Virus record (IMG/VR): IMGVR_UViG_3300007735_000641
Span: 1 to 33,719 of that record
Strand: one strand, 5' to 3'
Origin: a virus
DNA length: 33,719 nt
The translations under genes and the position numbers were made by a program. This document shows, in pieces, positions 1 to 7,843 of this stretch; position 1 is the stretch's first letter, and each line of letters begins with the position of its first letter. The notes beneath the pieces were generated by a model. That model was not told where the DNA came from. It did no database searches and saw only the letters and a program-made list of their open reading frames with translations.

Positions 1-272
1 GCTCGGAACCTGCCACCCAGAAAAATGCCATGTAAAAAGTTATCTATGTTTTTTATTGACAACAACTTACAGAACTTATTACTCTTTAAGTCATAAGTAT
101 GGGTATTATCAACAACCATGCTTTTGTAAGTGCCACTTCCTTGTGTAAGTGCCTTAAAATCAATGGGTCGTTTTTGGCTTTTCTTGCCTTTTATAAGCCC
201 TTGATATAGAGCCCTTAATAGGTTGCCAGGCATCCAGGGGGTGGCAAAGCACATCAAATGGAGTGGTTTCAT
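1..272 (-). CDS. Probable partial hypothetical protein running off the left edge
   Basis: An ATG at 272 opens a frame that stays free of stops for 90 codons to the window edge, so the C-terminus is missing. The visible part begins MKPLHLMCFATPWMPGN and ends near HGIFLGGRF, with a mix of hydrophobic and basic residues and no obvious signal peptide or membrane segment. The upstream ribosome-binding site is weak (GAAAGA), and the gene is separated from its upstream neighbour by about 245 bases, unlike the tight packing elsewhere. I do not recognise the family. An open frame this long could still arise by chance, so the call is tentative. Confidence 0.45.
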   Translation of the reverse strand, partial: MKPLHLMCFATPWMPGNLLRALYQGLIKGKKSQKRPIDFKALTQGSGTYKSMVVDNTHTYDLKSNKFCKLLSIKNIDNFLHGIFLGGRFR

Positions 273-516
273 TTGATCTTTCTACTCAAGAGAGCATGCC
301 TTTTTCTTCTTTAAGCCCTTTATATGCATATATTTAGCTGTTTGTTTGGGGTCTTGGCAGGTCATTCTGGGGCATTCCCTGGGTGGGCTACCGTTTATTT
401 CTTGCCCAGATGGGGTGTCCAGGATACCCCCCCCTTATAGGGGCTGTGGTGTCCATGGGCTTGCCCACTTGTCCAGGGCTTGTGGCGGGGCTCCCAGGTG
501 GCTTGGCGTGGCTTCC
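273..516. other. Gene-poor gap at the end of the early operon
   Basis: I see no convincing gene here. The stretch holds an 8-9 base C run next to TTATAGGGG, which can fold into a short CCCC/GGGG hairpin but has no following U-tract, so it is not a clear terminator. It also holds one copy (389-396) of the TACCGTTT/AAACGGTA repeat described separately, and a 7-bp direct repeat GGTGTCC. A 27-codon ATG frame at 365-282 is too weak to call. Confidence 0.4.
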
Positions 517-1011
517 TCACAGGCTTCCCCCTGCCTCTACCCATGCCTCCACCAAGGGCTTGGCCTCCTCAATGAACTCTAGCCTTTGGGCTTCTGACCA
601 GGATGTTGGGCTCTTCTTGGTTACCCACTGCTTGGCCTTAAAGACATAGGCTAACCAATGGGCTTGTGGTCTGGGGCTTGAGCCTTCAATGGGGTCTGGC
701 AAGATACCTGCCCATAGGCATAGCTGTTTAAGCTCACCAGGCTTTGGGCTGGCCAGCATGGCCTTGGCTTTGGCCACCCTCTCCAGGCGTCTGCCTTCCT
801 CACCGTTTATGCCTCCAATTTCCAGCACTGCCTCCAGGTCTAGCCCCTCACTCCTGGCTGATAAGAGCAACTGCCCTGCATCAGCGGCCAAGCTAATAGC
901 CTCTGCCATATCCTGGATTGCCTGGTTTCTGGCCAAGCGTAGCTTGCCTACCGTTTCTTGTAGCTCCATCCCTACCCTCTTCTCGTTGTCCTTGATTATA
1001 GCCTTACTCAT
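517..1011 (-). CDS. DUF3102-like hypothetical protein, 164 aa
   Basis: The start at 1011 is chosen because AAGGAG lies about 9 bases upstream (TAAGGAGAACAAGCACATG); the longer open frame has no such site. The N-terminal half is strongly helical with an alternating charged and alanine-rich pattern (residues about 15-75), like the DUF3102-type helical region of phage and plasmid accessory proteins. The C-terminal half contains a Trp-rich segment (WLAYVFKAKQWV) and an acidic amphipathic helix. It follows the 99-aa gene at 1324-1025 by 13 bases and is probably the last gene of this operon before a gap. DUF3102 function is not established, and the family assignment is from memory. Confidence 0.55.
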   Translation of the reverse strand: MSKAIIKDNEKRVGMELQETVGKLRLARNQAIQDMAEAISLAADAGQLLLSARSEGLDLEAVLEIGGINGEEGRRLERVAKAKAMLASPKPGELKQLCLWAGILPDPIEGSSPRPQAHWLAYVFKAKQWVTKKSPTSWSEAQRLEFIEEAKPLVEAWVEAGGSL

Positions 1012-1024
1012 GTGCTTGTTCTCC

Positions 1025-1324
1025 TTATTGTGCAAAGGCTTCCCATGGCATTTGTGCCTCCTGGGCTTCCTCTGCTGGTGGTTCCAATTCTGCAAACCTG
1101 TATTGTGCAAAGCCTCTCTCTGCATGGGGTGGCACACTAGAGCCTGGGTTCTCAAGCCCCTCCAGGTACACAACCACTTCCCCTGGCTGGTTGTCCAGGC
1201 CAATGCCTATTCCCATGTCCCTTACAATATATAGATTGTCCTTGATGGGAAGGCTGGTGTAATAAAGCAGGATGTCTGTGGGGAACCTGTCATCCAGGCA
1301 AACAACTTTGCTCCCAGACCTCAC
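1025..1324 (-). CDS. Small conserved phage-type hypothetical protein, 99 aa
   Basis: Starts with GTG at 1324, overlapping the upstream stop by four bases (GTGA), which indicates translational coupling. The protein begins MRSGSKVVCLDDRFP, continues with a LPIKDNLYIVRDM segment, and ends with a GFAQYRF-type motif and an acidic tail. This matches a pattern common in small phage proteins: a beta-rich fold of the form 'G-x-KVVC-x-DD ... Y-x-VR ... GF-x-x-RF'. It has no catalytic motif I can name. Function unknown; the arrangement suggests an early-region accessory protein. Confidence 0.65.
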   Translation of the reverse strand: MRSGSKVVCLDDRFPTDILLYYTSLPIKDNLYIVRDMGIGIGLDNQPGEVVVYLEGLENPGSSVPPHAERGFAQYRFAELEPPAEEAQEAQMPWEAFAQ

Positions 1325-1860
1325 CTTTTGCCCCTCCCTACCGTTTTTTTAATGCCCTTTTCCCAGGCTCCCTTTGGCCATTTTGGGCATTCTTGGCGTC
1401 TCCTCTGGTGAATCCTTAGAGCCCTGTCCTTGTAAATCTCCCTAACCCTTTGAGACCTCTGCACTCTCAATACAAGCCCTGTTCTTTGGGATAACTCAGA
1501 CAACCTGGCTGATAGAGCCGCCCTGGTGTAGGGCTTGCCTGTCAGTGGGTTGATGTATTTCCTGGCAATGCTGGTGAGGCTTTCTGGGCTTCTGTTGGTA
1601 GCTAGTGCAAGCAGTGCCTCATCCAATGTATCATCCCTCTTTGTCCTAAGTAGCGGTCCACTAAACTCTGCCTGGATGGTGTCTTGAATCACCTGGGCGG
1701 CTAATTTGGCCAGTTCATCCAGGCTAATAGCTGGGTTCATTCCCTTTATCTTAGAAAGCCTCTCTCTGACCACATCCTCCATGGTATCAATTTCTGAGGC
1801 TATGTCTGGGGTGTAGCTTGCCAGGATACTATCCGCAGGGTCTTGATTTCCAGGGTTCAT
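1321..1860 (-). CDS. Hypothetical helical, basic protein, probable DNA-binding, 179 aa
   Basis: The ATG at 1860 overlaps an AAACGGTA repeat copy (1860-1867), so the site spans the start region. The N-terminal about 80 residues are acidic and helical. Residues about 85-135 read like a helix-turn-helix (ALLALATNRSPESLTSIA ... YTRAALSARLSEL), and the C-terminus is very basic (RRRQ ... KKTVGRGKR). The composition fits a small nucleic-acid-binding protein, perhaps a regulator or small-terminase-like protein. No specific family is recognised, and a terminase role is unsupported because no large subunit is in view. Its stop overlaps the GTG start of the next gene. Confidence 0.55.
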   Translation of the reverse strand: MNPGNQDPADSILASYTPDIASEIDTMEDVVRERLSKIKGMNPAISLDELAKLAAQVIQDTIQAEFSGPLLRTKRDDTLDEALLALATNRSPESLTSIARKYINPLTGKPYTRAALSARLSELSQRTGLVLRVQRSQRVREIYKDRALRIHQRRRQECPKWPKGAWEKGIKKTVGRGKR

Positions 1861-1865
1861 ACCGT

Positions 1866-2270
1866 TTAATTTTCCACTTCTACCCAGGCATACCTGCCCA
1901 CCCTGTTCAGTTCTATCATTGCTTGCTTCTGGGTTGAGAAAAACAGGTCAACCACTGGAACCTTGCCATAGCTTGCCTTCTTTGCCACCACTGCTGTGCC
2001 AGTGTCTTTAGCCACATAGGTTTTTCCATTCACCTTTACCCTGGAGCCATATTTGATGATTTTGGGGTCTACAGCACAGGTCTTACCACTCACAAGCCTC
2101 TTGCCTGTTGAACTTTGATACCTAGTTGTCCATTCATCTTGGCTTGGGTGAGCCCAGTAGGCTGTAATCCTGGCCTTGATCACCTTCTTTGGCTTTGGCA
2201 TGGGCTCAATAAGGATGTTGGCCGCTTGGCATGGAGCCAAAATAGCAACAATGATTGCCAGGAGCCTCAT
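1866..2270 (-). CDS. Secreted 3D-domain (double-psi beta-barrel) protein, 134 aa
   Basis: Residues 1-16 form a short signal peptide (MRLLAIIVAILAPCQA). The mature part shows the 3D-domain layout: ITAYW near 35-39, AVDPKIIKYGSRVKV around 66-80 with D68, AKDTGTAV around 87-94 with D89, and VPVVDLFF with D108. Those three aspartates name the family, which is related to the barrel of MltA lytic transglycosylases and Gram-positive resuscitation proteins. A role in peptidoglycan binding or cleavage outside the inner membrane is therefore likely. It sits far from the lysis cassette, in the early-type region, coupled to the HTH gene upstream by an ATGA overlap. Confidence 0.75.
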   Translation of the reverse strand: MRLLAIIVAILAPCQAANILIEPMPKPKKVIKARITAYWAHPSQDEWTTRYQSSTGKRLVSGKTCAVDPKIIKYGSRVKVNGKTYVAKDTGTAVVAKKASYGKVPVVDLFFSTQKQAMIELNRVGRYAWVEVEN

Positions 2271-2563
2271 ACAGCCACCTGTTCTGAATCAATCCAGTGT
2301 GCAAATCTCCCAGGCTTAACAATCTTACCGTTTTTTTCTAGCCACCTGGCGTGGTATTGGACTGCTCCCTGGCCTAGTTTAAGTATTTTGGCAATGACTG
2401 CTGTTGGGATGCCATTGATTAACAGCACTGCAATAGCCTGCCTGAGCAGGTCTATGCGTTCTTCAGTTCTGTTCTTGGCTGTAAGCTTCTTAAACTCTGC
2501 ATTATCTGGGCAAAGTTCAATTAAAAGCCTTTCAGCCCTAAGTTGTGCTGACTCAATGGGCAT
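2267..2563 (-). CDS. Small helix-turn-helix DNA-binding protein, 98 aa
   Basis: The ATG at 2563 follows a TAGGACAAAT ribosome-binding region. Residues about 30-70 hold two amphipathic helices, then a recognition-type helix (AVIAKILKLGQGAVQYHARWL) followed by a basic wing (EKNGKIVKPGR). This resembles the winged-helix or sigma-like HTH of small phage regulators. It precedes the secreted 3D-domain gene with a four-base overlap and follows the DNA-modification-type glycosyltransferase by about 50 bases. One AAACGGTA site lies inside it at 2326-2333. A local transcriptional regulator is plausible, but the target is unknown. Confidence 0.6.
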   Translation of the reverse strand: MPIESAQLRAERLLIELCPDNAEFKKLTAKNRTEERIDLLRQAIAVLLINGIPTAVIAKILKLGQGAVQYHARWLEKNGKIVKPGRFAHWIDSEQVAV

Positions 2564-2614: not shown

Positions 2615-3493
2615 TCACAAGTTACCCACAGGCTTCCTGTATTGCTCTGATACAATCATTGGAGTTGTGTTCTGCCACTTAATCAAATGATGAATCCTGG
2701 GATTGCTGGTGTTCATCATTGAAATCCTAACACTTGATGGGTGCATCATCACCGTAGTGAAAGCCTTGCAGTATGTTCCAAACCTTAAATACATATCAGT
2801 GATTCCATTCTTCTGGCTCTGGGTAGCTGTTTGAACCAGGCTGATCATGGGGATAGTGCCAAATAGCACTCCCCTGGAGCCCAGGGTTACGTACGTATTT
2901 ACGTCCTCATTCATTGCACCAATAAACTGGAATGGCCTTTCTGTTGAGCAGATGAATGAGTTCATGCATTTTCTGATAAGAGGCTTCTTGGTTGCATACT
3001 TATTTTCAACACCACCAATGAAGTCTCCACCCTGGGCAAATGCCATGCTTGAGAATCCTGTTGCCCTATAGAAATCAAGGTAAAAGCCAAGCACAGCATC
3101 CAGATTATCCACATAGTGAACCTTCAGCTTCTCACCACACCTGCTCACATACCTGTATTCAAAAGAGATGTAGTCATCGTCCAGTTCCATAAAGAACTTC
3201 AGCCCCTTGTCCTTGGCTATTTGGAAACAGGCATTCCTGGCATGAGTGATTGTCCTTCTTTCATCAAAGTTGTTGCCCTCATCAACTTGGTCTGCCAACT
3301 GCTTCTTGTTGAATACAACAACCTTGTCTTTGCCAAAGTTGGCAATGTATTTGTCTAGGCTCTTGTCCTCATCATCCACAACCAGGTAAAGCTTTCCAGT
3401 ATAGCCAGCCCTCTGAAGGGTTGCCATGGTCTTTACATTGGTTGGTCTGCCATGGGTCAGAATGAATATGGCAAAGTCATTCTGTATGCTCAA
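2615..3493 (-). CDS. TET/JBP-associated (GREB1-related) glycosyltransferase-like protein, 292 aa
   Basis: The N-terminus (FAIFILTHGRP, residues 7-17), the KLYLVVDDEDKSLDKY segment (34-49), the DERRTITHARNACF helix (77-90) and the acidic FMELDDDYISF motif with D105-D107 match my recollection of phage glycosyltransferases that accompany TET/JBP dioxygenases. The DDD would bind a metal-nucleotide-sugar. The expected role is transfer of a sugar to a hydroxymethylated base in phage DNA. Translation probably starts at TTG 3493, supported by AAGGAG eight bases upstream (3507-3502); no nearby in-frame ATG exists. It overlaps the conserved 134-aa gene by 17 bases. No TET dioxygenase is visible in the window, so the acceptor base is unknown. 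Confidence 0.75.
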   Translation of the reverse strand: MSIQNDFAIFILTHGRPTNVKTMATLQRAGYTGKLYLVVDDEDKSLDKYIANFGKDKVVVFNKKQLADQVDEGNNFDERRTITHARNACFQIAKDKGLKFFMELDDDYISFEYRYVSRCGEKLKVHYVDNLDAVLGFYLDFYRATGFSSMAFAQGGDFIGGVENKYATKKPLIRKCMNSFICSTERPFQFIGAMNEDVNTYVTLGSRGVLFGTIPMISLVQTATQSQKNGITDMYLRFGTYCKAFTTVMMHPSSVRISMMNTSNPRIHHLIKWQNTTPMIVSEQYRKPVGNL

Positions 3494-3881
3494 GGTATTG
3501 GCTCCTTATCTCATCACAAAGCCTTACATATCCATTCTCAATTGCCTTGCCAAAGTCTATGATAACCAGGGCAGACTTCTCCATAAGATGCTGAACCTCT
3601 GGTGTGGCATGGGCATAGTAATCTGCAATCTTTTCATAATTGAACACACTATGCCTCTTGGCCGCCTCAATCAGAAACTCCTTCACATCCTGTGGAATGT
3701 CTGAAGCAAGAACCTCCCTAATGAGGCTGTTTGATTTTGCAATATCAACCAGTTCAAGCAGGTGAGGCTTCTTGTTCTTTGGCTCATAGACAGGAGACTC
3801 TATTTTGGATGAATACTTTGAATCATCTTGGTCTGGCTCAAGCTCTCCACCAAATAGGCTGGCCTGTTTTGCTATGTTCAT
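3477..3881 (-). CDS. Conserved phage hypothetical protein beside the glycosyltransferase, 134 aa
   Basis: The ATG at 3881 overlaps the methyltransferase stop (ATGA). The N-terminal about 40 residues are charged and probably disordered (FGGELEPDQDD, KIESPVYEPKNKK). Residues 40-134 form a compact helical domain with the striking motif RHSVFNYEKIADYYAHA (76-92), then EVQHLMEKSALVIIDFGKAIE. I recall similar proteins in other phages as conserved unknowns. Its fixed place between a methyltransferase and a DNA-sugar-type glycosyltransferase suggests that it assists base modification or targets it to DNA, but this is inference. Confidence 0.65.
   Translation of the reverse strand: MNIAKQASLFGGELEPDQDDSKYSSKIESPVYEPKNKKPHLLELVDIAKSNSLIREVLASDIPQDVKEFLIEAAKRHSVFNYEKIADYYAHATPEVQHLMEKSALVIIDFGKAIENGYVRLCDEIRSQYLEHTE
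3502..3507 (-). promoter_or_regulatory. Strong Shine-Dalgarno deciding a TTG start
   Basis: AAGGAG on the coding strand lies eight bases upstream of TTG 3493 and inside the end of the upstream gene. It is the best argument that the glycosyltransferase starts at this rare codon. Confidence 0.6.
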
Positions 3882-6833: not shown

Positions 6834-7044
6834 TTTGCATTCTCCTTATGGCTGTAACCACATCATTAAGAATATCCTTAATAACCTGGTCTTCGTTTGA
6901 GTCTGCAATCTGCTGGACTAATTCAGCACAACGATTGCGCTCAATCTCTGAAACCTTTGCAAAGTTCTCCCTCAGAATGTTGGGGATTTCCCCCAGCATC
7001 TGGGAGCCAATGCTTTCTGTAGCATCAGAAAGGAATCTGGTCAT
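6820..7044 (-). CDS. Small helical hypothetical protein, 74 aa
   Basis: The ATG at 7044 lies 20 bases inside the end of the upstream gene. The protein is helical and acidic in its middle part (NILRENFAKVSEIERNRCAE, VQQIADSNEDQVIKDIL) and has no recognisable motif. Tight overlap on both sides supports it as a real gene. Function unknown. Confidence 0.5.
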   Translation of the reverse strand: MTRFLSDATESIGSQMLGEIPNILRENFAKVSEIERNRCAELVQQIADSNEDQVIKDILNDVVTAIRRMQNVRY

Positions 7045-7843
7045 TGGGGTTCTCCTTGGCTAATGCATCTGCTTCCAACAGGATTTCTCTGATGATTTCA
7101 TTTCTGATGATGTCGTTCTTATAGGGCTTGCCATCTGCTCCAGGCTTCAATTCTTGCCTGGACAACCAATCAAGATAATCCAAGCCCTTGTCTCCAAAGG
7201 CGGCAACCTGTCTTAAAGTTGAGCCCTTATGCTTTCCAAACTTCAACTCCATATCCCTGGGCTCACCACCATTGGTTTTAATCACAACACTATTTAACTT
7301 GGCTGTGATGTCTGCCAGGTCTGCCTTGCTAATTGAATCTGACTTTACCGTGTCCACCTTTACAGGCTCCTCATACTTCTCTGTGTTGATGTCCTCAAAG
7401 CCACCATGAGGAACTTCCTCGGCTGGTGTGGTGGATAGGTTGCGGTCGATCAGCACCACAATGTGTGCAAAGGCTGAACGACAAGCTCTGCTGATTGCCC
7501 TGGTCTGGCACATTGCCCTTCTGGCGTACTCTGGTCTCTTAGCCCACATGGGCTCATCATCTCCAACAAAGCCCTCTGCCTGGCTAATTACTTGGCCGTC
7601 TGCCATCTTCCTAACTTCTCCAATGCATCGAAAGCCACCCTCTACTTTCTCAACTCCCTTGGAAGAGGCAACACAACCATGAGCAACTGCTATGGCTTGC
7701 CATCCCTCCACCTTTACATAATCTTTATTTCCAATTCTCTGGGCTGTTGCCTTAACAATTTCTCTGCAAGCCCCTGCAACATCGGAACTTTGCCTAGCCA
7801 GGATTGCTACCTGGTTGTTTGTTGTAGTTAGTTCACTGCTCAT
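7025..7843 (-). CDS. Phage DNA-metabolism protein with ExoX-like C-terminal domain, 272 aa
   Basis: The N-terminal domain (about residues 30-135) contains VEGWQAIAVAHGCVAS, MWAKRPEYARRAMCQTRAIS and RSAFAHIVVLI, a pattern I recall from widely distributed phage proteins of uncertain, possibly ssDNA-binding or annealing, function. A linker precedes LKFGKHKGSTLRQVA and LDYLDWLSRQ (200-230), which resembles the small C-terminal module of exodeoxyribonuclease X. The protein ends NDQIPF, reminiscent of the SSB C-terminal peptide. A strong AAGGAGG site precedes the ATG. A recombination or ssDNA role is inferred, not shown. Confidence 0.55.
   Translation of the reverse strand: MSSELTTTNNQVAILARQSSDVAGACREIVKATAQRIGNKDYVKVEGWQAIAVAHGCVASSKGVEKVEGGFRCIGEVRKMADGQVISQAEGFVGDDEPMWAKRPEYARRAMCQTRAISRACRSAFAHIVVLIDRNLSTTPAEEVPHGGFEDINTEKYEEPVKVDTVKSDSISKADLADITAKLNSVVIKTNGGEPRDMELKFGKHKGSTLRQVAAFGDKGLDYLDWLSRQELKPGADGKPYKNDIIRNEIIREILLEADALAKENPNDQIPF

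Follow-up and report, generated by a model that had tools for sequence, protein, structure and literature searches.

When phage lambda is cut at cos, the left end of its DNA is held by terminase and the right end is open; RecBCD enters through the right end, and Chi acts on it in an orientation-dependent manner. Chi has been identified in few bacteria (eight are tabulated in PMC5959072); its activity follows an orientation rule and its sequence varies, from GCTGGTGG in E. coli and GCTGGCGC, with tolerance at base 8, in P. syringae to AGCGG in B. subtilis and GAAGCGG in S. aureus (PMC5959072). In lambdoid phages, Chi sites concentrate in the region between the replication genes and terminase, and crowd towards cos when the phage encodes a recombinase but lacks an inhibitor of RecBCD (PMC3784561). 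Our own counts gave four Chi sites in HK97 and two in HK022, all in the active orientation, none reversed and not crowded at cos, both phages carrying Abc2; lambda has none. Other polar motifs are known from phage tf, whose 14 nick sites (TACT/RTGMC) are all confined to a single strand and recur in its relatives at similar positions and with variant sequences (PMC3517423), and from stoperators, which occur throughout the genome (PMC9283540).

The window analysed here is a 33,719-nucleotide contig of an uncultured tailed phage from IMG/VR, whose main genes lie on the minus strand. It contains five exact copies of AAACGGTA on this coding strand between 389 and 2333, and none on the opposite strand or in the rest of the 33.7 kb. 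The plus-strand form, TACCGTTT, starts at 389, 949, 1339, 1860 and 2326, exactly where the initial annotation had placed it in a single orientation, and the one-mismatch copy listed there at 801 is likewise present and reads AAACGGTG. Dinucleotide shuffles give an expectation of 0.21 copies of AAACGGTA per whole window, and none of 100 shuffles reached five, in agreement with the earlier claim that an 8-mer should occur far less than once in 2 kb. When one mismatch is allowed, the window-wide count is 11 against 12.5 by chance, i.e. not above chance, and it is therefore the exact 7-8-mer that carries the signal. CpG in the window stands at 0.35 of expectation, which makes a CpG-containing repeat all the more striking. 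The exact sites are spaced by 560, 390, 521 and 466 bp, with 148 bp from 801 to 949; the spacing has no fixed period and differs between relatives.

The array lies next to a genome end. The 10-base repeat GGTTCCGAGC is found at both ends of two near-full-length contigs (G003 and G008), the window opens with its complement GCTCGGAACC (plus strand, with GGTTCCGAGC at 1..10 on the minus strand), and dozens of loci on independent contigs start or stop exactly at the point of window base 1. Judged from these coinciding contig ends, base 1 is the physical right end of the chromosome and the repeat is read as cos, for which we infer a 10-nt 5' overhang from the filled-in ends. With base 1 as cos, the array falls within the terminal 3 kb at the right end of a linear chromosome. 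It always abuts this end, beside terminase: the genes beyond cos in relatives encode ParB-like, TerS-like and HNH proteins, a large terminase of the lambda-GpA type and the portal. In one locus, the TerS reading frame contains an in-frame stop (AQY*EAT; L266:7199-7795), which reflects a sequencing error or else a disrupted gene. Additionally, a partly palindromic conserved block (TAGATAACTTTTTAC / TAGGAGACTTCTA / TAGAAGACTCCTA) is located about 20-35 bp upstream of cos at a near-constant distance, in L023, L036, L058, L067 and others, and is a candidate cosQ-like or terminase site.

Two genes beyond the array deserve separate mention. Window positions 3477-3881 encode a second, shorter ParB-like protein (phrog_620), additional to the post-cos ParB-like gene, and the adjoining 2615-3493 encode a TET-associated glycosyltransferase (PF20691, E 3e-33). 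GATC, ACGT and GTAC are also rare in this CpG-depleted genome, and the phage may carry a hypermodified cytosine. The genes searched yielded neither a TET enzyme nor a cytosine methyltransferase.

We gathered 155 non-redundant loci (1.47 Mb) via terminase, gene 517..1011 and array-less members, in which AAACGGT occurs 271 times forward and 3 times in reverse. Upstream sequence together with cos was available for 59 genomes; the 205 sites mapped in them all lie 352-2801 bp before cos, and both the stretch closer to cos and that between 2.8 and 6 kb are free of sites. Whole-record counts agree, the records of near relatives having no sites outside the array. Specifically, each of ten close relatives found via protein 1321-1860 has retained the array with its orientation unchanged, and the records counted contain no further copies. 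When words were counted de novo in 12 representatives, AAACGGT emerged unprompted (44 forward, 0 reverse). The eighth base is usually A or G, giving AAACGGTR, with AAACGATG variants at corresponding places, and phages with the array carry one to six copies, flexible in number and position. The A-rich stretch that had been noticed ahead of the sites holds across independent site classes, where a G-rich patch stands further upstream. The array is absent in relatives with more distant terminases (at most 44% identity), and the word AAACGGT was not found in the literature searched. Thus the counts on both strands and in relatives revealed neither an even frequency nor a lack of bias nor a loss of sites: the orientation bias is total, all ten closest relatives retain the sites, and the original observation is correct as a whole and stronger than first claimed. 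The array is real, strongly selected, polar, cos-anchored and conserved across a phage family.

A second one-orientation word, GAATGCCC, occurred 18 times forward and never in reverse in the 12 representatives, at scattered positions; it lies at window 369-377 and 1385-1392, and near cos in L023, L010 and L041.

The individual sites, all on the minus strand, differ in their surroundings. The site closest to the right cos end (389..396) is non-coding, and is kept in relatives despite diverged flanks (site classes 6, 10 and 14). Two sites fall within gene 517..1011, a conserved gene of no assigned function and the last before cos; the AAACGGTG site at 801..808 encodes I-N-G-E and the one at 949..956 encodes T-V. 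The site at 1339..1346 is located at the 3' end of gene 1321..1860 and 15 bp ahead of the start of gene 1025..1324, both conserved and of no assigned function, while that at 1860..1867 shares a single base, the A of the start codon, with gene 1321..1860, the gene-start overlap pointed out in the initial annotation. Upstream of a gene for a 3D-domain (PF06725) cell-wall-type protein (1866..2270), the last site (2326..2333) encodes K-N-G-K near the 3' end of gene 2267..2563, whose product is a small winged-helix protein. Over the family, the sites occupy three reading frames (K-T-V, I-N-G and K-R-Y) and at least four genes as well as non-coding DNA, at positions that are non-homologous between lineages. 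In gene 517..1011, the codons around the 949 site have a synonymous divergence of 0.148 versus 0.505 gene-wide, the lowest of 159 windows. The 801 class carries G in 19 of 19 distinct relatives; the site is lost in L008, L009 and L015, and some relatives encode the I-N-G-E peptide without the motif. The three frames, the shifting places and the frozen synonymous codons together indicate selection on DNA or RNA rather than on protein, and a protein-coding explanation is rejected on the frames and frozen codons. Coincidence, codon usage or descent without selection could appeal to the flanks that the closest relatives have in common by descent, and to the few sites that encode conserved peptides. 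This explanation is at odds with the expectation of 0.21 in the window, the 271:3 orientation over a divergent family, the three frames with their frozen codons and the concerted change of motif in one clade described below, and we reject it as having next to no probability.

As an alternative, the sites might be a transcription signal, such as a late-promoter element, an antitermination or pause site or a stoperator, acting on a rightward transcript that runs across cos into terminase like the lambda late transcript. Every site points with transcription and precedes the late operon that lies beyond cos, and three of the six window sites directly precede gene starts. All genes are co-oriented with the sites, so that cos polarity and transcription polarity are inseparable here. 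However, a search of 3.5 kb for sigma-70-like promoters gave two matches, compared with 3.9 in shuffles, and neither at a site; no -10/-35-like flank is conserved around the sites, and site number and position vary, with sites deep within genes. We found no promoters or terminators at the sites, and neither an Rfam match nor a shared RNA fold there. The stoperator or operator reading proposed in the initial annotation is not supported: the sites keep to the interval 352-2801 bp before cos, whereas stoperators are by definition genome-wide (PMC9283540). No integrase or repressor family was matched among the proteins tested, which are a part of the gene set. We regard a transcription signal as unlikely. 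The flexible number and position of the sites (one to six) would be expected of an enzyme that reads from the end rather than of a fixed promoter.

The motif has switched once as a set. Four loci (L253, L254, L255 and L266) carry four to six AAACGGC each in the array and no AAACGGT, with 20 copies forward, none in reverse and none elsewhere, several of them at corresponding positions; one such T to C change turns Val into Ala in the protein. Whole records of three of these phages (G040-G042) hold 15 AAACGGC, all oriented alike, and lack AAACGGT altogether. In a tree of gene 517..1011 with 86 rows, 77 of them with AAACGGT, the AAACGGC phages form a single branch with 100/99 support. Such a simultaneous change points to a reader acting in trans whose preference has shifted.

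A phage protein could be this reader. The sites might bind the winged-helix protein, TerS or the ParB-like protein and mark the right end for packaging, packaging termination or ejection, as the strict cos association and the conservation of DNA-binding genes within the array and next to it would suggest. Nevertheless, the candidates do not track the motif. The TerS proteins of the AAACGGC phages L255 and L266 differ in their N-termini, and that of L222, an AAACGGT phage, is L255-like. The winged-helix protein (2563-2267), which the initial annotation had offered as a local reader, is identical in L239 and L222 over the matched stretch, and only L222 has the array. In lambda, the cosB sites lie less than 200 bp from cos, on its opposite side and in mixed orientation, which also speaks against an end-binding role, and we consider such a role rather unlikely. 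Of the functions suggested earlier, partition found no support, the ParB-like genes being of the phrog_620 type; packaging retains a link, in that the array abuts the right cos end beside terminase, with the exact function unproven. TerS, the winged-helix protein and the HNH protein (below) are thus rejected as readers, none of them tracking the motif. Since the phage proteins examined do not shift with the motif, a host protein is favoured as the reader, though not proven.

In the same tree, absence of the array maps to two places, namely L195 and the clade L229/L252/L239/L244. A replacement motif common to the array-less lineages was sought and not found. L195 carries ACACGG six times, always in the same orientation and never elsewhere in the locus, over a stretch from about 1230 bp ahead of the start of its 517-1011 homologue to 340 bp beyond that start; this is suggestive only of a replacement motif, as one 6-mer at such a count can be chance. 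In L239, L244 and L252, small genes encoded on the opposite strand form a cassette between gene 517-1011 and cos (L239:6753-9254, L244:4505-5182 and L252:3732-4481, minus strand), and the three cassettes have a protein of 144-149 aa in common (phrog_15770-like). This cassette could make the array unnecessary, for example by encoding a nuclease inhibitor.

A short, asymmetric, single-strand motif also recalls the localized single-strand nicks in virion DNA of T5, phiKMV-like phages and the P. putida phage tf (PMC3517423). The sites lie on one strand only, as nick sites do, and an HNH-family gene adjoining terminase might supply the nickase. Two observations weigh on the other side. In tf and related phages, nicks occur all along the genome (PMC3517423) and are not gathered at one end, and the HNH protein does not follow the motif: relative to the L006-type protein, identity is 97% in L222 (AAACGGT), 86-92% in the AAACGGC clade and about 60% in other AAACGGT phages. 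Nick sites are, in our view, quite unlikely.

We tentatively favour, at somewhat under an even chance, the reading of AAACGGTR as Chi-like polar sites for a host end-processing helicase-nuclease that enters the right cos end. The 271:3 orientation towards the right cos end is that of Chi in lambda, and the product of gene 7025..7843 (minus strand) is probably a Rad52-superfamily single-strand annealing protein with an ExoX-like C-terminus: the best PDB matches of its predicted fold are Rad52 and Mgm101, both weak (E 0.01; model pLDDT 70). A homologue is present in 18 of 19 family records, and the array-less L239 retains it. No match to the Gam or Abc2 families of RecBCD inhibitors was obtained among the proteins tested, many small genes being without a known family. 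The Chi-like reading is supported by the polarity and place of the sites, by selection at the DNA or RNA level, by their flexible number and position, by the concerted switch of motif, comparable to the shift between the E. coli and P. syringae Chi sequences, and by the published crowding of Chi towards cos in phages with a recombinase but no RecBCD inhibitor, among which this phage would probably belong. The Chi sites of HK97 and HK022, which are not crowded at cos, and the members that lack the array, with the annealing protein still present in L239, count against it. In the proposed mechanism, the phage has a linear cos chromosome with the terminase genes at its left end. After the cos cut, the left end would be held by terminase and the right end, probably the first into the cell, would be open. 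A nuclease such as RecBCD, AddAB or an analogue would enter the right end, travel leftwards and meet each AAACGGTR from its 3' side, i.e. in the Chi-active orientation. Several sites at 0.35-2.8 kb from the end would raise the odds that degradation turns into recombination before genes are lost; concatemer formation would be helped and the end protected.

TerL scans of 84,980 species genomes, with single sequences and with alignments, found no relative, no phage record is near at the DNA level, and TerL shares at most about 31% identity with phages and plasmids. A wider proposal, which we hold as possible with somewhat less confidence, is that the terminal array is the host's own Chi (AAACGGTR, or AAACGGC in one clade), used as an end-protection device; its sequence would then disclose which recombination signal hosts not yet in culture use, and keep a record of changes of host. 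If the arrays are Chi, phage genome ends would let the Chi of unculturable hosts be read, and a change of motif in a phage clade would flag that the host or its nuclease had changed. Otherwise, a strictly polar, cos-anchored motif that is kept throughout a large phage family and has no assigned function would still be a new structural element of tailed-phage chromosomes.

Compared with known systems, the array shares asymmetry and a single orientation relative to transcription with mycobacteriophage stoperators, which are genome-wide and read by the immunity repressor, whereas here there is one terminal cluster. Like the R sites of lambda cosB, it is made up of short sites that recur next to cos and the terminase genes; unlike them, it lies 352-2801 bp away, in one orientation and on the opposite side of cos. 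With the nicks of T5, phiKMV-like phages and tf, it has in common a one-strand motif, conserved positions and variants between relatives, but those nicks are scattered along the genome. Its motif is less G-rich than known Chi and not reported as Chi, and in contrast to the broad distribution of published phage Chi, it is found within 2.8 kb of cos and nowhere else in the genome. It nevertheless resembles Chi in being a short, asymmetric and polar 7-8-mer in the active orientation for an enzyme coming from the right cos end, with a tolerant last base, lineage-specific variants and a location near cos as in recombinase-positive phages.
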